Source of the DNA: a virus | Strand: one strand, 5' to 3' | IMG/VR virus record: IMGVR_UViG_3300045960_000111 | Location: 1 to 30,340 of that record | DNA: 30,340 nt | In this document: positions 16,886-24,996 of the stretch, piece by piece | How positions within the stretch are numbered: position 1 is the stretch's first letter | How the letters are laid out: every line of letters starts with the position of its first letter | Position numbers and translations under genes: made by a program | Notes under the pieces: model-generated | The model's database searches: none | Told to the model about the DNA's origin: nothing | What the model saw: only the letters and a program-made list of their open reading frames with translations

Positions 16886-19468
16886 ATGGTGAAACTCCGG
16901 GGGCTACGCGACCCCTCCAACATGAGCGACGCGGAGTTGATGGCGGAGGCCGAGGCGCTCGAAGCGGCCGAGGACCGCGCGGCGTTGTCGGACCCGGCCG
17001 CGTTGCTCCACCGCGTTGTCCCGCGCTACCGGCTCCGTCCCCACCTCGACGTGATCACCAACCAGATGAAACGGATCATATCGGGGGAAATCGACCGATT
17101 GTTGATCACCCTTCCACCACAGACTGGGAAGACCCTGACCGCCGTCGTCGGTGGCGCGGTCTGGTGGCTGGCGAACCGCCCGGACGCGAAGGTCATCATA
17201 GGGTCGTACGGGGACTCGCTGGCCGTAGACCGGGGCCGCGACTCGAAACGCATCATCGAGGAGCACGGGCACCGGTTCGGCCTGACCCTCGCACGCGGCT
17301 CCGAGGCGGTGCAGGATTGGCAACTGGTCACCGGTGGAGGGGTCCTGTCAGTCGGGATCGGGGCCGGCGTGACCGGGAAGCCGGGGGACATCGCGTTCAT
17401 CGACGACCCGCACAAGAGCCGGGCCGAGGCCGACTCGCTACGGTTCCGCGACCGGGCGTACCGGTGGTTGTCGGCGGACATCATCAGCCGGCTGTCCCCC
17501 GGAGCACCGATGGTCATGGTGATGACCATGTGGCACCCGGACGACCTCGCGGCCCGGGTCGTCGCGGACGAGGGGACCACGGCCGAGGGGGGCCGATGGG
17601 AGGTCGTGCGGATGCCCGCGTTCTGCGACGACCCCGACCACGATCCCCTGCACCGGAAACTCGGCGACCCACTACCGCATCCGAAGATCCGGATCGCTGA
17701 CACCGCGCGGGCAACCGCCCACTGGCAGGACAAGCGCCGGGCCTCCACCGTCCAGGACTGGCACGCGTTGTACATGTGCGACCCGAAACCGGCCGAGGGC
17801 GCGCTGCTGACCCGCGAACTCCTCCGGGAGCGCCGGTGCTACACGAAGGGGTCGGCGTGCCACCCGTGCGACACGAACCCGGTTCGGGCCGCCATTGCGG
17901 TCGACCCGTCCGGGGGCGGCAGGGACACGGCCGGGGTCATCGGCGGCTACCTCGGGTCGGACAAGCGCCTGTACCTGATCCGGGACGCGTCCGGGGCGAT
18001 GTCGTCGGACGCGTGGGCGAAGGCCGCGTGCGAGATGGCCGTGGACATCGACGCCGACCTGATCATCTTCGAAAAGAACTTCGGAGGCGACATGGCGGGT
18101 CGGATGATCCGTACCGCGTGGTCGACATTGCAGTCGGAGGAGCGGGAGGCTGTCCGGAATCGGGTGATGGACGAACAGCCGCACCTGACCGCGCGAGAGG
18201 TTGAACGGATCGTAGACCGGACGACCCTGCGGTACGGGCGGTTATGTCCCCGGATCAAGGCCGTGACGGCACGGAAGAACAAGCGGTTGCGCGCGGACCC
18301 GATCGCCCAGCAGTGGGTGGAGGACCGGGTGCGGACGGCCGCGTACCTACCGGAGGTCGAGGAGGAGTGGTGTGTCGCTGAGGGGGAGGAAGTTACGACA
18401 CGTCGTGGTCTTGTCCCTATTGAGAATGTTCGTGTTGGGGATGTGGTGGCGACTAGGTCTGGATGGCGTGATGTCGTGTGGTCCGGGCAAACCGGTGTCA
18501 AGGAGGTGTTGACGATAACGGCGTCTGATGGGCGGATGCTGCGATGTACCGATAATCACGAGATATGGGTGGTTGGAAAGGGGTGGACAAGGGCGGATGA
18601 AATAGAGGAGTCAGATAGAATGATGGTATCGAACACTGGCTTCTCCACCGGGCCGTATGGGCCGCACACAACGGTCCAATTCCAGCCCGACACTTCATCC
18701 GACACCGCGACGGTAATCTCGCGAACAACGACATCACCAACCTCGACGCCATCCCCTACGGGGCAACCCGCCGATGGATCGAGTTCGATGGCAAGCGCTT
18801 CTACCGTGGATCAGACGGATACTACCAGCGAGCCAAGTCCGTCAACGGAGAACGACTTCTCCACCGGGCCGTATGGGCTGCACGCAATGGACCTATCGCC
18901 AATAGAACTCATATTCACCACGAAGACGAAAATCGGTCCAACAACGACATCAGCAACCTACGCGCCATGCCAGAGCACGAACACCTCTGTCGACATAAGG
19001 CCGCTCCGATTGGGGCATCAGCAGAGGACAGCGCAACACGATCGGCAAGACGCAGAGATGAGTGGAGCAGACGCCAACCACGGACGATCATCTGCGCCGA
19101 GTGCGGAATTTCCTACCAGTCAACAGGTCAGAGGGCAAAATACTGCACAACAGCGTGTCGAGACAGGAACCGTCATCGTCGTGCGCGTGACAAGGGGGAA
19201 GCGCGTTCCGGTCTATGACTTGACCATCGACGAAGATCACGAATTTTTCGCCAACGGCATACTCGTGCACAACTGCACGTGGCAGGAGGGGTCGTCGGGC
19301 TCGCCCGGCCGGATCGACGCGAGCACCTACCTGGCCTATGCCCTGTTGCCGATCCCGAAGGGTGGTTCGGGTGGTGCGGCTGCACCGGGCGGTTCGTTGC
19401 CGACGACGGGTTCCTCGCCGCTTGATCGTGGTGGTTCCGCCGGTGGGTTCGGGCCGTTGGCACGCTAG
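16886..19468 (+). CDS. terL: Terminase large subunit interrupted by an intein
   Basis: The precursor is 860 residues; removal of a 301-residue intein would leave 559. Residues 76-83 are the Walker A motif (LPPQTGKT), 169-175 the Walker B (IAFIDDP), and MTMWHPDD near 213-220 the coupling motif; this ATPase pumps DNA into the prohead. The RNase H-like nuclease follows: Asp341 in AIAVDPSGGG, then IIFEKNFGGD, and after the intein the last Asp in RIDASTYLAYALL (Asp811). The intein sits between Trp495 and Cys797, 14 residues before that Asp, so the unspliced protein should lack nuclease activity. The C-terminal tail is Gly/Ser-rich. ATG 16886 is behind GGGGAGGGG. It is about 9 kb from the small subunit. 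Confidence 0.92.
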   Translation: MVKLRGLRDPSNMSDAELMAEAEALEAAEDRAALSDPAALLHRVVPRYRLRPHLDVITNQMKRIISGEIDRLLITLPPQTGKTLTAVVGGAVWWLANRPDAKVIIGSYGDSLAVDRGRDSKRIIEEHGHRFGLTLARGSEAVQDWQLVTGGGVLSVGIGAGVTGKPGDIAFIDDPHKSRAEADSLRFRDRAYRWLSADIISRLSPGAPMVMVMTMWHPDDLAARVVADEGTTAEGGRWEVVRMPAFCDDPDHDPLHRKLGDPLPHPKIRIADTARATAHWQDKRRASTVQDWHALYMCDPKPAEGALLTRELLRERRCYTKGSACHPCDTNPVRAAIAVDPSGGGRDTAGVIGGYLGSDKRLYLIRDASGAMSSDAWAKAACEMAVDIDADLIIFEKNFGGDMAGRMIRTAWSTLQSEEREAVRNRVMDEQPHLTAREVERIVDRTTLRYGRLCPRIKAVTARKNKRLRADPIAQQWVEDRVRTAAYLPEVEEEWCVAEGEEVTTRRGLVPIENVRVGDVVATRSGWRDVVWSGQTGVKEVLTITASDGRMLRCTDNHEIWVVGKGWTRADEIEESDRMMVSNTGFSTGPYGPHTTVQFQPDTSSDTATVISRTTTSPTSTPSPTGQPADGSSSMASASTVDQTDTTSEPSPSTENDFSTGPYGLHAMDLSPIELIFTTKTKIGPTTTSATYAPCQSTNTSVDIRPLRLGHQQRTAQHDRQDAEMSGADANHGRSSAPSAEFPTSQQVRGQNTAQQRVETGTVIVVRVTRGKRVPVYDLTIDEDHEFFANGILVHNCTWQEGSSGSPGRIDASTYLAYALLPIPKGGSGGAAAPGGSLPTTGSSPLDRGGSAGGFGPLAR
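18619..19218 (+). CDS. HNH endonuclease nested in the intein, -1 frame
   Basis: The frame one base behind the terminase is open from 18619 to TGA 19218. It encodes two tandem HNH modules: LLHRAVWAAHNGPIPARHFI then RHRDGNLANNDITNL, and LLHRAVWAARNGPIANRTHI then HHEDENRSNNDISNL. The second keeps both histidines; in the first the HH pair is RH. Between them is FDGKRFYRGSDGYYQ, the usual lead-in of phage HNH_3 proteins. At the end is a zinc-finger-like CAECGISYQ...KYCTTAC. No ATG, GTG or TTG precedes the modules (first ATG at 18967), and the upstream stop is TAG 18616. Expression would need -1 frameshifting from the intein frame (between 18619 and 18640) or an unusual start. It could also be a decayed gene, but it has no stops. 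Confidence 0.65.
   Translation, partial: NDGIEHWLLHRAVWAAHNGPIPARHFIRHRDGNLANNDITNLDAIPYGATRRWIEFDGKRFYRGSDGYYQRAKSVNGERLLHRAVWAARNGPIANRTHIHHEDENRSNNDISNLRAMPEHEHLCRHKAAPIGASAEDSATRSARRRDEWSRRQPRTIICAECGISYQSTGQRAKYCTTACRDRNRHRRARDKGEARSGL
18640..18662 (+). repeat. 23-bp direct repeat, copy 1 (HNH module start)
   Basis: The 23 bases starting CTTCTCCACCGGGCC recur identically at 18856-18878. They encode the LLHRAVW motif of each HNH module, so the repeat reflects duplication of the module. Confidence 0.75.
18856..18878 (+). repeat. 23-bp direct repeat, copy 2
   Basis: Identical to 18640-18662. The two copies are 216 bases apart, a multiple of three, so both HNH modules stay in one frame. 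Confidence 0.75.
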
Positions 19469-19986: not shown

Positions 19987-21992
19987 ATATCCGGCGGAGG
20001 AAGCGGCAACTACGCGCAGTCGGCGATATCGATCCGGTCCTCCGCGAAGAGATCGACGGATTGTTCTCGCCTCCGCTCCTGTGGCGGTTCCGGGGGGCTG
20101 ACACCACGACGACACGATTCCGGGAGATCGTCACGTCCTCGGCGCGTCGGGCGCTCGCCGACGAGTCGGCCGGGTCCTCGGTCACCGCTGCCGTGTCGCG
20201 GTTGTCGATGGATGGCGCGTCGTGGCGTTCCTACCGATTCGGTGACCGGGCGTGGCAGGCCGACGCATGGCGCCTGTACGACATCACCGGACAACTCCGA
20301 TTCGTGGCGAACTGGGTTGGTAACTCGGTCTCCCGCTGCAACCTCTACGTCGCCCGAACCAAACCGGACGGGTCACCCGGCGAACGCGTCGACACTGGTC
20401 CCGTAGCGGAACTCGCAGCCGGCCCGTTGGGCACCGGCGACGCGAAGGCCGAGGCCCTCCGCCTCCTCGGGATCGACCTGTTCGTTCCCGGCGAGGCGTA
20501 CGTGGTCGCCCAGTCCGGGGGCGGAGAGGACGGCGAAGACCTCTGGTGGGTCGTCACATCGAGGCAGATCAAACGACAGGGCGACAACATCACGGTCATC
20601 CGGTCCCCGGTCCACGGGGGCGGAACCATGGAGTACCGCGAGGGCATTGACCTGATCATCCGGGTGTGGACACCACACCCGGCCGACACGTCCGAACCCG
20701 ACTCGGCAACCCGGTCCGCGATCCCGGACCTCCGCGAGATGGAGGCCCTCCGGAAACGCGAATTCGCCGAACTGGACAGCCGGTTGTCCGGGGCCGGCGT
20801 GTTCGCCCTCCCCGAATCCCTGGAACTGCCACGGGGTGACGACGACCCCGTTGGTGCTGCCGGGTTCTCCGCCCTCCTCGGCCGGGTCATGTCCCGGTCG
20901 TTGCGCGACCGGTCGTCGGCCGAGGCCATGGTCCCGATCATCATCACCGGACCCGGCGACGATATTGGAAAGATCCGACACATCACCCTCTGGTCGGAAC
21001 TGTCCGAGCAGATCGGGACCATGCGTGAGGGCGCCCTCCGGTCCCTCGCCCAGTCGTTGGATATCCCCCCCGAGGTCCTGATCGGCCTCGGGTCGTCGAC
21101 GAACCACTGGAACGCCTGGGCCATCAGCCGCGAAGCCGTACAGATCCACATCAAGCCGGTGTTGACCCGCATCGCAGCAGCCCTGACCACCGGCTACCTC
21201 GCACCAGCCCTTGAGGCCATGGGCGAGGACCCCACCGGGTACATGTATGCGTTCGACACCGCGCCGTTGACCGTGAACCCCGACCGGTCCGGCGACGCGA
21301 AAGACCTTCACGATCGGATGCTCATCTCCGACTCGGTGATCCGTGCCGCGTCGTCGTGGACCGATGGGGACGCCCCATCGTCCGCCGAGCGCACCGTGCG
21401 CCTGGTCGAGAAACTCCTCCTCGCCTCCCCGAACGCGGTCCTGTCCGATCCGGCCCTCCGTGCCCTGATCGGCCTCCCCGAGGCCCAGGCCGTCCCAGTC
21501 GAGGAGACCACGGCCCCCCCCGGCCAGGAGGAACAACCGGCACCGGCCGAGGAGGAGGAGACGCTACCGGAGGAGACCGAGGAGGAGACGGAGGAGGAAC
21601 AGGGGCCGCCCCCGGCCGGATCACCAACGGAACCATCCGGTTTATCGTTCGCGGCGCAGTTGGCGATCCGGCGTGCCCTCGGCCTCGCCGGAACCCGTCT
21701 CGTCCCCCATTCGAAGCGTCCGGCCGGGATACCCACCTACCAGTTGCACGTCCATCACGGGCCGGTGGTCGGGTCGCAGAAAATCTCGACGTTCCTCGGC
21801 GGATCCTGGCGGGACGAGTTCGCCGGGGTCGGGCCGGCGTTCGGGATCGACGACCGGTTGTTCCTCGCGATGGTCGAGGAACACTGCCGTGACCTCCTCG
21901 TCCGTGGGATCGCCTATGACCCCGTCGACGTCGAGACCCTGTTCGCGTCCCCGGCGACCGTGAACCGATTGCGGGTGATGTCCTGTGCATGA
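19983..21992 (+). CDS. Portal protein
   Basis: The product is 669 residues. The segment WRLYDITGQLRFVANWVGNS (about residues 95-114) and the later TMREGALRSLAQSLDIPPEV and HWNAWAISREAVQIHIKPVL motifs are typical of actinophage portal proteins, the dodecameric ring through which DNA enters and leaves the head. Residues 505-550 are a long Glu/Pro-rich linker, followed by a C-terminal domain of about 120 residues that is not part of the usual core. ATG 19983 overlaps the previous stop. The end overlaps the MuF gene by eight bases. Confidence 0.88.
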   Translation: MNIRRRKRQLRAVGDIDPVLREEIDGLFSPPLLWRFRGADTTTTRFREIVTSSARRALADESAGSSVTAAVSRLSMDGASWRSYRFGDRAWQADAWRLYDITGQLRFVANWVGNSVSRCNLYVARTKPDGSPGERVDTGPVAELAAGPLGTGDAKAEALRLLGIDLFVPGEAYVVAQSGGGEDGEDLWWVVTSRQIKRQGDNITVIRSPVHGGGTMEYREGIDLIIRVWTPHPADTSEPDSATRSAIPDLREMEALRKREFAELDSRLSGAGVFALPESLELPRGDDDPVGAAGFSALLGRVMSRSLRDRSSAEAMVPIIITGPGDDIGKIRHITLWSELSEQIGTMREGALRSLAQSLDIPPEVLIGLGSSTNHWNAWAISREAVQIHIKPVLTRIAAALTTGYLAPALEAMGEDPTGYMYAFDTAPLTVNPDRSGDAKDLHDRMLISDSVIRAASSWTDGDAPSSAERTVRLVEKLLLASPNAVLSDPALRALIGLPEAQAVPVEETTAPPGQEEQPAPAEEEETLPEETEEETEEEQGPPPAGSPTEPSGLSFAAQLAIRRALGLAGTRLVPHSKRPAGIPTYQLHVHHGPVVGSQKISTFLGGSWRDEFAGVGPAFGIDDRLFLAMVEEHCRDLLVRGIAYDPVDVETLFASPATVNRLRVMSCA

Positions 21993-24900
21993 CATGTGGT
22001 CGCTCGACTACGCGCGCACGGTGCCCGGGGCGATGGTGAACGCGGCCGGGGACGTGTTCTACCCGGACGGTCCCGACGACGCGGCGTGGTTCGCGGAGGA
22101 ACACGGGGCTTGGGTGATCACCGGTGCCGACACGGGTCCGGTGTGGGACGGGGAGGGAACCGACCCGTGGATCGTTCCCCGGATGGAGGCGGCTACGGAG
22201 GCTGCCGTGATCGAGGCCGCGATCCGTGAGGCCCTGTGGGTCGAGTTGTCGGCGTGGTTGGTGACGGTGTCCCGCGCGGTCCTCCACACCGTTCTCCCCG
22301 ACCCCCTAGCGATCTTCGCGAAAGCTCCGGCTTGGTCGGCAGCCGTTGACCGGATCGTCCGGGGTCCGGTTCGGGACGCGGTCGGCACGACCTACCACAC
22401 GTTGCTCGGTGACGGGTACCGGTTCGGGTCGCGGCCGGCCGTGGTCGAGCACCTGGCGACGGTGTCCAACCGAATGGTTCGCACCGTGGACTCGACGTTT
22501 GACCTCGTCGCCCGGCAGGTGTCGATCGGGGCGAACCTCGGCGAGGGTGCGGCGGAGATCGCGGACAGGGTTGACGAGGTGTTGTCGACCACGCGCACGG
22601 AGCGCTGGCCGAACCGGGCGACCGTGGTCGCTCGGACGGAATGCCTCCTTGGTGATTCCGTTGTCGCATCAGATGGGATTGAGGCCGTCTATAGGCGTTG
22701 GTACGATGGGCCGATATTCCGGGTACACACGGCCAGCGGCCAACAGTTCTCCGGTACCGCGAATCACCCGATACTCACGTCGAGAGGTTGGGTTGGTTTT
22801 GAACACCTCGTGCCAGGAGATGAGTTGGTCCATAACTCGCTCATTCAATGTGTGCGTATGGCGACTGATGAACACATAAGCGACGTTCCATCCAGCATCA
22901 GCCAAATCTACGATGCGCTCGCGGCAATAGGCATCGTTGTCCGGGCGGAGACTGGAAAACCAGATTTCCACGGCGATGGGATGAATGGATACGTCGATAT
23001 TGCGACTACCAACCGCGTGCTGGCGGACCGGATTATATCCACGGGCGCTGAGCGATTCGAAAATCTCGTCCTCGAACCGTCCGATACCAACGATGTCCTG
23101 TTGTCGCGTCTTAGCGATTTTCTCACGGTTGGTCGACCTTCCGGGAGTTCGCATAATTCCAAGTGGTCGGAGGCGTCGCTCGATCGTGTCCTTCGACACG
23201 CCATACTCGCTTGCGAGGTCAGAGGCGCTCGCCCCGGAGAGGTATTCGGATGTCAGCGTGTCAATGTCGATTTTTATCCATCGCGATCCGTGTTCTCCGC
23301 GAAGGTGGAACTGGGCGGCCTTCGCCTCCTTCATTCCTCTTGTATTGATACCAGCTCCTGTCAAGATCCGTTTTATGACATCGGTGTCGGTGTGGTACGT
23401 GGTTGCCAACTTGCGAAGACTTTGCCCAGCCTCGTATGCGGACACGACAAGCGTGGTGTCGATGTCATTTCTTCGAGGCATGGAAGCGGCCTCATGTTGG
23501 GTCAGCGTCGTTATCCCGGCGTTGGCCAATATGGATCTGATTCGTCTGGGATGGATGCGATACGCCTTCTGAATAGCGTTGATGCTGCTTCCCGACCGGT
23601 AGGAGTCGATAATGTCGTTGGGGTCGATGTCATTCCGTTTAGCGGCCATGTGTACAACCTCACTACTCGCCGAGGGTGGTTCAACTATGGACCACTATAC
23701 AGCGGTAACACGATGGGGGCGTTGAACGCCGGCCGGCAGGACGCGTTCGCGGCCGTGGCCGAGGAGTTGGCGACCCCGTTCGAACAGATGTGGGTGGCGA
23801 CCGTGGACCGGAGGATTCGTCCGACCCATCGTCGCGCGGACGGGCAGCGGGTACCGACCGGGCAGCCGTTCATCGTGGGTGGCGCGTCGCTACGGTTCCC
23901 CGGCGATCCGTTGGGTCCCGGCAAGGAGGTGATTCAGTGCCTACCCGGAGACGTCGTTGTCGACTACCGCGCTGTACGTTCCGTCACGAGACGTTGGTAT
24001 GAGGGCGATATTGTTGTCATCCGGTTTGCCGGTGGCAACAATCTCACCATTACACCGAATCACCCGGTACTGCGGGCTGACGGTGTCTGGGTAGCCGCTG
24101 GTTTGATCAACGAAGGAGATCACTGCGTCCGCTGTGATATCCGTCGGGGCGATTCCGGAACACCAGACGAAGATTGTGGACCATCCAAGATTGGCGAGAT
24201 CTACGGTACGGCGTGCGAGGCGAAGACGCCTGACCGGATATCCCTCTCCCCACCAGACTTCCACGGCGACTCTACCGATGGTGATGTTGAGGTTGTACCC
24301 ATATATGGCAACCTGCGTTTCGACGGTTACCCCGCGCGCGATGAGGAAATCGACGAGTTCGGCCTCTCCCTTGCCGATTTTGCGTGTTCGCGTGGTCGCC
24401 GTGCTGATGGTAGGACGTTCACGGTCGGGGTTCCGCTTCGCGAAGTCGACGTTCAACCGCCTTCGTTCGGCGTTCGCTGGTGCCGTGAGGAGACGTCTGG
24501 CTTCGATGCTGGCGCGACTCATTCTGATCTTGTTGGCTTCGCTTACGGTTCTGGTGTCCAGCCCGGCTGCTGCGAGTCGACGGATGATGGTTGGCCTGCT
24601 CACTCCAAACGCTTTGGCGATCGCGAGGACGCTGTCTCCGTTGTTGTATCGGGAGATGATGTCGTCAATGTCGACGTCGACTCCTTTGGCGAGTCGGGCC
24701 GCTTCGGACGCGGTTCTGATTCTGGCGCCGCAGGCCCGGAGGTATTTGGTGATGGTGTCCGGGGTGCAATCCAAGAGTCGTGCGAGTTCGACGGTGCTCG
24801 CCCCGTCTTCGTATCGACGTCGGAGGTCGTCTCTGTCGATCGCTTTTCGTTCGCGGGTCATGTGTTCAACCTCGATACCGGAGTTGGTTGGTACACCGCC

Positions 24901-24996
24901 AATTGTGTACCAGTGAGAAATTGCCGTTGCACCACGATCCTCCTGGAGCCGGGGGAGACCGTTGACCTTACGCATCGTCAGTTCAAGAACTACTAG
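21985..24996 (+). CDS. MuF-like head protein with two inteins
   Basis: The precursor is 1003 residues; removing 356- and 328-residue inteins leaves 319. The joined exteins read as a MuF-like minor head protein: an N-terminal helical region, then TMGALNAGRQDAFAAV, WVATVDRRIRPTHRRADGQR, VGGASLRFPGDPLGP and EVIQ joined to CRCT. Such proteins sit at the portal vertex and help assemble or are packaged in the head. The inteins begin at Cys220 and Cys652 with +1 residues Thr and Cys, and both interrupt the most conserved motifs. GTG 21985 is the annotated start; ATG 21994 is an alternative. Both inteins are overlapped almost entirely by leftward nuclease genes. Confidence 0.88.
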   Translation: MHDMWSLDYARTVPGAMVNAAGDVFYPDGPDDAAWFAEEHGAWVITGADTGPVWDGEGTDPWIVPRMEAATEAAVIEAAIREALWVELSAWLVTVSRAVLHTVLPDPLAIFAKAPAWSAAVDRIVRGPVRDAVGTTYHTLLGDGYRFGSRPAVVEHLATVSNRMVRTVDSTFDLVARQVSIGANLGEGAAEIADRVDEVLSTTRTERWPNRATVVARTECLLGDSVVASDGIEAVYRRWYDGPIFRVHTASGQQFSGTANHPILTSRGWVGFEHLVPGDELVHNSLIQCVRMATDEHISDVPSSISQIYDALAAIGIVVRAETGKPDFHGDGMNGYVDIATTNRVLADRIISTGAERFENLVLEPSDTNDVLLSRLSDFLTVGRPSGSSHNSKWSEASLDRVLRHAILACEVRGARPGEVFGCQRVNVDFYPSRSVFSAKVELGGLRLLHSSCIDTSSCQDPFYDIGVGVVRGCQLAKTLPSLVCGHDKRGVDVISSRHGSGLMLGQRRYPGVGQYGSDSSGMDAIRLLNSVDAASRPVGVDNVVGVDVIPFSGHVYNLTTRRGWFNYGPLYSGNTMGALNAGRQDAFAAVAEELATPFEQMWVATVDRRIRPTHRRADGQRVPTGQPFIVGGASLRFPGDPLGPGKEVIQCLPGDVVVDYRAVRSVTRRWYEGDIVVIRFAGGNNLTITPNHPVLRADGVWVAAGLINEGDHCVRCDIRRGDSGTPDEDCGPSKIGEIYGTACEAKTPDRISLSPPDFHGDSTDGDVEVVPIYGNLRFDGYPARDEEIDEFGLSLADFACSRGRRADGRTFTVGVPLREVDVQPPSFGVRWCREETSGFDAGATHSDLVGFAYGSGVQPGCCESTDDGWPAHSKRFGDREDAVSVVVSGDDVVNVDVDSFGESGRFGRGSDSGAAGPEVFGDGVRGAIQESCEFDGARPVFVSTSEVVSVDRFSFAGHVFNLDTGVGWYTANCVPVRNCRCTTILLEPGETVDLTHRQFKNY
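22642..23709 (+). other. MuF intein 1
   Basis: The intein has 356 residues, Cys1 (CLLGDSVVASDG) to Asn356 (PLYSGN), with +1 Thr. Block B is TANHPILTSRGW, and block F is SGHVYNLTTRRGWF. The penultimate residue is Gly rather than the usual His. Residues 70-320 contain no known endonuclease motif in this frame. They include PDFHGDGMNGYVDI, which lies opposite the catalytic motif of the antisense nuclease. The intein is homologous to intein 2. Confidence 0.88.
22669..23649 (-). CDS. Antisense HTH-Vsr-like endonuclease inside MuF intein 1
   Basis: The 326-residue protein lies wholly inside the intein on the opposite strand, covering intein residues 10-336. Three helix-turn-helix units recur, each beginning with Ile-Asp: residues 8-46 (IDPNDIIDSYRSGSSINAIQ), 63-101 and 128-165 (SASDLASEYGVSKDTIERRL). 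Residues 190-285 look like a Vsr-like PD-(D/E)XK nuclease: Glu193/Glu195, Gln210, NIDV with Asp219, AVEIW with Glu228, and a helix-strand end DLADAGWNVAYVF. Such proteins are probably homing endonucleases. ATG 23649 has GAGG eight bases upstream; both are the complement of intein block F. Its codons are in register with the sense codons. Expression and cutting are inferred. Confidence 0.82.
   Translation of the reverse strand: MAAKRNDIDPNDIIDSYRSGSSINAIQKAYRIHPRRIRSILANAGITTLTQHEAASMPRRNDIDTTLVVSAYEAGQSLRKLATTYHTDTDVIKRILTGAGINTRGMKEAKAAQFHLRGEHGSRWIKIDIDTLTSEYLSGASASDLASEYGVSKDTIERRLRPLGIMRTPGRSTNREKIAKTRQQDIVGIGRFEDEIFESLSARGYNPVRQHAVGSRNIDVSIHPIAVEIWFSSLRPDNDAYCRERIVDLADAGWNVAYVFISRHTHTLNERVMDQLISWHEVFKTNPTSRREYRVIRGTGELLAAGRVYPEYRPIVPTPIDGLNPI
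23938..24921 (+). other. MuF intein 2
   Basis: The intein has 328 residues, Cys1 (CLPGDVVVDYRAV) to Asn328 (CVPVRN), with +1 Cys. Block B is TPNHPVLRADG, and block F is AGHVFNLDTGVGWY. The penultimate residue is Arg instead of His. The linker frame is Asp/Gly/Ser-rich without endonuclease motifs but keeps PDFHGD. It shares both splicing halves with intein 1, so they are related copies at two sites of one gene. Confidence 0.88.
23941..24861 (-). CDS. Antisense HTH-Vsr-like endonuclease inside MuF intein 2
   Basis: The 306-residue protein is encoded opposite intein 2 and covers intein residues 2-308. Two clear helix-turn-helix units are at residues 8-46 (STVELARLLDCTPDTITKYL) and 64-102 (SVLAIAKAFGVSRPTIIRRL). 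The nuclease part is at 160-260: GKGEAELVDFLIARG, Gln183, YGYNLNI and AVEVWWG (Glu201), then DLANLGWSTIFVW. It is homologous to the protein at 22669-23649. At the position of that protein's Asp219 it has Asn, so catalysis may be lost or altered. ATG 24861 has GAGG eight bases upstream, again the complement of intein block F. The stop is the codon next to intein Cys1. Confidence 0.82.
   Translation of the reverse strand: MTRERKAIDRDDLRRRYEDGASTVELARLLDCTPDTITKYLRACGARIRTASEAARLAKGVDVDIDDIISRYNNGDSVLAIAKAFGVSRPTIIRRLAAAGLDTRTVSEANKIRMSRASIEARRLLTAPANAERRRLNVDFAKRNPDRERPTISTATTRTRKIGKGEAELVDFLIARGVTVETQVAIYGYNLNITIGRVAVEVWWGEGYPVRRLRLARRTVDLANLGWSTIFVWCSGIAPTDITADAVISFVDQTSGYPDTVSPQYRVIRCNGEIVATGKPDDNNIALIPTSRDGTYSAVVDNDVSG

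Follow-up and report, generated by a model that had tools for sequence, protein, structure and literature searches.

Homing inteins of the canonical type carry a LAGLIDADG or HNH endonuclease within the intein polypeptide. The locus described herein resembles them in having splicing blocks A, B, F and G, in its location at conserved motifs of an essential gene, in carrying a putative endonuclease and in its polymorphic presence, but differs in that the endonuclease appears to be encoded not within the spliced polypeptide but by a separate gene on the opposite strand. In 2009, Dassa et al. reportedly described fractured split inteins with a separate gene for a Vsr-like homing endonuclease (HEN) between the two intein halves. 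As in the present case, a HEN of a similar superfamily is encoded by its own gene at the intein locus, but there the intein is split into two genes, whereas here it is contiguous and shares its DNA with the HEN gene, which runs on the opposite strand. Antisense HEGs are known from some nuclear group I introns, so that these have, as here, an endonuclease opposite to the host gene in a self-splicing element; an intron RNA, however, needs no open protein frame, whereas here both strands read as protein. I-Bth0305I resides in a group I intron. This Vsr-like enzyme of the EDxHD family shares with the products described below, HEN1 and HEN2, a nuclease fold to which DNA-binding helices are tethered, but the His of EDxHD is missing in HEN1 and HEN2, and the gene here lies antisense in an intein. 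I-Bth0305I serves as the EDxHD example in a review of intron endonucleases (PMC3943268).

The ShiLan element, reported in 2025 (PMC11855218), is a hidden HNH endonuclease in the methylase insertion of a phage gene. It is similar to the present locus in that a phage gene has an in-frame insertion without stops, which is overlapped by a HEN frame, but it is of the HNH type, lies on the same strand and is devoid of a self-splicing domain and of a recognisable ribosome-binding site (RBS), whereas the frames analysed here are on the opposite strand, in register, within true inteins and preceded by a conserved Shine-Dalgarno (SD)-like site. HEN1 and HEN2 are hence not of the ShiLan type, characterized by an alternative frame on the same strand and no splicing domains. 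In the full-text literature searched, an antisense endonuclease inside an intein was not found, and relative to these known neighbours the opposite-strand endonuclease inside an intein appears to be new; a 2025 preprint on non-canonical actinobacteriophage inteins (10.1101/2025.01.02.630785), which lies beyond that literature, may describe one. The head-gene intein of KMB36 and UPWr phages is named in two papers, whose passages on it leave the opposite strand unmentioned.

Two inteins in a minor head protein gene

The window, that is the whole stretch of 30,340 nucleotides analysed in this study, derives from an IMG/VR virus record (IMGVR_UViG_3300045960_000111) and includes the genes for terminase small and large subunits, portal and head. 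The host gene and its insertions are as follows (a slash marks the insertion site or the splice junction).

21985-24996, plus strand: MuF-like minor head protein gene (host gene), 1003 aa unspliced, interrupted by two inteins
22642-23709, plus strand: intein 1, 356 codons, at site ARTE/T in the MuF domain, from Cys1 of CLLGDS to Asn of YSGN/T; block A CLLGDS, block B TANHPIL, block F GHVYNL, end ..YSGN
23938-24921, plus strand: intein 2, 328 codons, at site EVIQ/CRC in the MuF domain; block A CLPGDV, block B TPNHPVL, block F GHVFNL, end VRN/C

Both insertions carry the N-terminal Cys in block A, the TxxH of block B, block F and the C-terminal Asn followed by Cys, Ser or Thr. In the Pfam search of the sense frame of the head gene, Intein_splicing and Phage_Mu_F were matched (with the entire 1003-aa protein the former scored 27.5 bits, under the cut-off of 35.8), and no endonuclease family was found in this frame. 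After removal of both inteins the predicted MuF-like head product is 319 aa in length, and this spliced protein aligned in one unbroken piece with six IMG/VR contigs at 82-93% identity, the three best intein-free contigs showing 91-93% head-protein identity. At the nucleotide level the exteins are 79-87% identical to the intein-free relatives, and the junctions are visible in the nucleotides. The unbroken alignment indicates that both intein junctions are exact and that intein-free alleles exist. Based on the splicing blocks and these empty alleles, both inteins are predicted to be self-splicing. No nuclease-family match was detected in seven of the records behind the intein-free relatives, several of these records being fragments, and the intein and the nested nuclease gene appear to be present or absent as a whole unit among close relatives.

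Predicted nuclease genes on the opposite strand

The following frames were identified on the opposite strand of the two inteins.

22669-23649, minus strand: HEN1, putative antisense homing-endonuclease gene, 326 aa, ATG start, stop TGA; HTH repeats plus Vsr/PD-(D/E)XK-like domain
22966-22995, minus strand: predicted catalytic core of HEN1, D219 (22993-22995) to E228 (22966-22968), NIDVSIHPIAVEIW; the sense motif opposite is DFHGDGMNGYVDI
23941-24861, minus strand: HEN2, antisense homologue in intein 2, 306 aa from the ATG opposite the block F His

HEN1 lies wholly within intein 1 and covers 91.9% of it. The initial annotation had pointed out this leftward frame of 326 codons, with 92% coverage of the intein and a core of Asp219 and AVEIW; the ORF with its ATG start was confirmed, the intein-free relatives confirmed the boundaries, and both core elements are present. 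The predicted catalytic residues E193, D219 and E228 are all intact in HEN1 and line up with residues conserved throughout the family. The second case, HEN2, was absent from that annotation. Its ORF is also readable from an earlier ATG at 24975, and the two products align as homologues over 323 aa, 28% of the residues being identical (E=6e-27).

HTH domains were detected over the Pfam cut-off in both HEN1 and HEN2, and residues 192-266 of HEN1 gave a sub-threshold match with REase_MTES_1575. In the relative L014, both DUF559 (E 1e-13) and MTES_1575 were over the cut-offs. A sequence search of PDB with HEN1 gave nothing useful. The AlphaFold model of antisense HEN2 (pLDDT 83) combines an alpha/beta nuclease core with two HTH units, and the best solved folds for this model were the I-Bth0305I catalytic domain 3r3p (Foldseek E 2.8e-3, probability 1.00; Z 9.6) and Vsr 1cw0 (Z 10.3), the nuclease fold match spanning residues 160-279. 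In contrast, only the ends of the sense translation of intein 2 fold, its residues 123-290 staying at a pLDDT of about 22, in a comparison with unequal alignment depth of 19 sequences for HEN2 versus 4 for sense intein 2. The description of the sense intein as carrying splicing blocks and no endonuclease held in the Pfam search, and for intein 2 the middle of the sense frame gave no confident fold.

The products of the family generally consist of one to three HTH units and a Vsr/EDxHD-like nuclease domain. As to the active site of EDxHD enzymes (E, D, H, D), E and D are conserved across the nuclease family, with N for D in HEN2, and HEN1 as well as HEN2 lacks the His of the GGxWH segment; for these reasons the two are filed as EDxHD/Vsr-like and not as strict members. 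The tethered multi-domain DNA binding of the EDxHD family is apparent, both from HTH in Pfam and from the helical HTH units in the model. Judged from sequence and model together, the product is a member of the Vsr/DUF559/I-Bth0305I-like nuclease family.

HEN2 keeps the conserved E166 and E201, but carries Asn192 (codon 24286-24288) at the position of the catalytic Asp, which is conserved in 18 of the 19 aligned relatives, suggesting that the HEN2 nuclease may be inactive. The active site of HEN2 is thus probably dead or weakened (D to N), while HEN1 looks catalytically intact. This substitution could mean that both genes are former homing endonucleases, now inactive in this genome, the element having reached the part of the homing cycle in which it degenerates, and it agrees with this reading that the promoter scan recognised none: no convincing leftward promoter was found for HEN1 or HEN2, the scan for promoters and terminators being at chance level. 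We consider such a state of the two genes unlikely, because both ORFs are intact with start codons and SD-like sites, all the predicted catalytic residues are kept in HEN1, and the purifying signal in the antisense frame is clear in comparison with relatives.

Register and start signal of the antisense genes

The frames of HEN1 and HEN2 match the sense frame in exact register: the first position of a codon lies opposite the third position of its partner, and the two middle positions face each other. In this phase, every stop of the sense frame would read as TTA, CTA (Leu) or TCA (Ser) on the antisense strand, and the in-register phase permits double coding since these stop-equivalent codons have synonymous replacements. 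Within the overlap TTA, CTA and TCA are nearly absent, as opposed to 7-14 expected in many loci of moderate or low GC content.

An antisense frame in such a phase might be a shadow of a real sense-frame domain in GC-rich DNA, because in-register frames partly mirror the conservation of each other and the GC-rich window contains many spurious ORFs. The chance of openness was indeed P ~0.1-0.2 for either intein in this GC-rich contig. The open frame alone is therefore not improbable here, and its significance rests on the homologues, the substitution pattern and the low-GC relatives. For loci of up to about 50% GC, with codon usage taken from the rest of each gene beyond the antisense frame, the chance is typically 1e-5 to 1e-9, and in the phages of 34-45% GC, where the antisense frame is likewise open, it is about 1e-6 to 1e-9, which argues against a shadow.

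The window contains a third intein, in the terminase gene.

18371-19273, plus strand: intein in the terminase large subunit gene (16886-19468), Intein_splicing 51 bits
18619-19215, plus strand: HNH_3 endonuclease in the terminase intein, in another frame of the same strand, E=1e-22, two HNH_3 stretches

The in-register antisense frame of this intein contains seven stops, and the terminase intein thus provides an internal negative control for antisense openness. No ATG, GTG or TTG is present in the HNH frame ahead of its first HNH stretch. A GAGGAG and an ATG of the sense frame are located directly upstream (18607-18622).

The start regions of the two antisense genes coincide with block F of the inteins.

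23647-23661, minus strand: predicted RBS and start of HEN1, GAGGTTGTACACATG, the exact reverse complement of sense HVYNL (block F), with the ATG opposite the His codon CAT
24859-24873, minus strand: predicted RBS and start of HEN2, GAGGTTGAACACATG, the reverse complement of sense HVFNL

The His codon of block F supplies, through its complement, the antisense start in most loci (CAT giving ATG, CAC giving GTG). The complement of the V-Y-N-L codons is GAGGTnnnnnnn ahead of the antisense start, and that of HVYNL as a whole gives GAGGT-7 nt-ATG. The block F Leu codon is CTC in 20 of the 26 loci against 6.0 expected, and this codon places GAGGT ahead of ATG or GTG. The sequence of the start region is different in the Helicobacter locus, yet AAGGAG is still produced. 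Two loci, L014 (5908-6564) and L015 (3269-3910), carry the canonical GGNWH together with a DUF559 match, and have Trp in place of the block F His; with this replacement, their start signal departs from the GAGGT-ATG rule.

Distribution of the antisense nuclease

By tblastn search with the antisense proteins, homologues were found in 34 (HEN1) and 123 (HEN2) phage records, and also in IMG/VR contigs and prophages. In the approximately 40 strong loci examined, which span 34-68% GC, the homologue is antisense, in the same phase and inside a full-length sense ORF, the sole exception being the Acinetobacter lineage (see below). The hosts include Gordonia, Salmonella, E. coli, Klebsiella, Vibrio, Pseudomonas, Aggregatibacter, Edwardsiella, Idiomarina and Helicobacter. 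Dozens of phages that are unrelated to one another share the arrangement. A profile search with a narrower alignment gave no members in genome contigs, and a second such alignment gave four loci; few strong members were found by profile search in two phyla, represented by 398 and 199 genomes, respectively. Weak profile matches (mostly 25-45 bits, short nuclease-part or HTH proteins) were left out of the member count. Among plasmids, one prophage-like case was found on a Candidatus Promineifilum plasmid, in addition to one partial match with HTH only. In the annotations examined, the antisense nuclease was missed in nearly all phage records, only the free-standing Acinetobacter copies being annotated as genes.

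The interrupted genes are nearly always minor head genes, in which the insertion sites are before the CRC motif, inside ARTE and before CRARDG. In the virus Rctr197k (L030, 619-2025, minus strand), the gene interrupted by the intein with its antisense nuclease is one for a dCMP/cytidine deaminase, and the insertion site is its PCxxC zinc motif. This deaminase gene is annotated as head morphogenesis. In two related Kagunavirus phages of E. coli, L016 and L019, the element occupies two different head-gene sites, TSTT/CRARDG and HPN/CRSTT, respectively. As most members are in minor head genes, a role in the head gene beyond homing is possible, and the product might be a real DNA-binding nuclease with another main function, such as phage exclusion or antisense control of the head gene. 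Relatives can be excluded by homing endonucleases. A main role other than homing is nevertheless rather improbable, considering that the nuclease moves with the intein to several head-gene sites and even to the dCMP deaminase gene, that intein and nuclease are jointly absent in close relatives, and that the nearest fold is that of a homing endonuclease.

Strand under selection within the inteins

In order to identify the selected strand, codon-aligned pairs of relatives were compared by codon position, and 11 pairs were pooled. In the nuclease body, the fastest-changing position was sense position 1, which is the antisense wobble position, whereas in the splicing blocks and exteins it was sense position 3. 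The single changes in the nuclease body were synonymous only in the antisense frame in 391 cases and only in the sense frame in 158, while the corresponding numbers in the flanks (splicing blocks) were 99 and 365, giving an odds ratio of 9.1 for body versus flanks (p=6e-59, an indicative value because the changes were treated as independent). For the Jerseyvirus-type pair L019/L098, 25 of the 28 single changes were synonymous in the antisense frame and 4 in the sense frame. The comparison of these pairs thus indicates conservation of the antisense frame in the nuclease body. The sliding profile of intein 2, obtained with the window against L005, L007, L033 and L035, delimited the following stretch.

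24109-24828, minus strand: stretch of intein 2 under antisense selection, the fastest-changing position being mostly sense position 1; outside of it the sense frame is selected

Two noisy windows deviate near 24649-24685. In intein 1 the antisense signal extends from about 22732 to 23330; further on, the sole relative, L004, has a deletion. The constraint flips from sense to antisense and back to sense at the nuclease borders. Opposite the antisense catalytic strand VAVEV, the complementary codons encode the conserved sense motif DFHGDG, and opposite the sense block B TPNHPV they encode the conserved antisense motif YRVIRG, indicating constraint on both strands in different segments.

A free-standing relative was found in Acinetobacter phage P1068, in which the head gene is uninterrupted with its MCKCR motif intact, and the nuclease gene adjoins it in convergent orientation as an annotated CDS of its own (L025, 2312-3205). 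The identical free-standing protein is present in P1068, IME285 and BUCT629. The frame opposite to the P1068 nuclease is broken, and the gene includes 13 TTA, CTA or TCA codons compared with 11 expected from its neighbours. This gene is, as judged from its sequence, a natural control for the overlap loci; the nested form could have descended from the free-standing copy, or the free-standing copy could have escaped from the nested form.

A homologue of the antisense protein thus exists outside of sense-strand inteins, and the sense frame does not explain the synonymous conservation; the refutation proposed in the initial annotation thereby fails. The substitutions in the body being synonymous in antisense and not in sense, the nuclease and HTH homologues and fold belonging to the antisense product with none for the sense middle, and the broken sense frame opposite to the free-standing homologue all argue against a spurious ORF, which was rejected by the codon-position tests; we regard it as extremely improbable that the antisense frame is such a shadow.

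Discussion

The separate opposite-strand nuclease gene within the intein, first proposed for intein 1, is consistent with the conserved antisense frame, the assignment to a nuclease family and the conserved start with its SD-like site. With a probability that we put at about 0.86, the homing endonuclease does not form an intein domain but has a gene of its own, which is nested in the intein on the opposite strand with codon facing codon. The sense frame retains blocks A, B, F and G and is open throughout the nuclease gene. It is also very probable that the locus represents a widespread class of inteins in phages of both Gram-positive and Gram-negative hosts, in which a Vsr-like HEN gene runs antisense and in register, HVYNL of block F doubles as RBS and start, and the long, old and doubly coding overlap is constrained on different strands in different segments.

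Expression, DNA cleavage and homing by the antisense nuclease are inferred as follows. The leftward transcript would direct synthesis of the endonuclease, of which the HTH units would bind the intein-free head gene for cutting at the insertion site, and repair of the cut would copy the intein together with the nested nuclease gene. The rightward transcript would give the head precursor, from which the intein would be spliced out. Being on the opposite strand, the nuclease gene would be expressed in a manner uncoupled from the spliced protein.

The 'mini-inteins' and other inteins without a recognisable endonuclease may hide one on the other strand, overlooked by annotation. In such elements the expression of the homing endonuclease would be freed from that of the host protein. 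The loci would also be a clear-cut natural example of long genes that overlap in antisense and follow a simple, directly testable rule, that is, the in-register phase and the avoidance of a few Leu and Ser codons. Their HTH-guided, Vsr-like nucleases may constitute a family that targets conserved sites in phage head genes.
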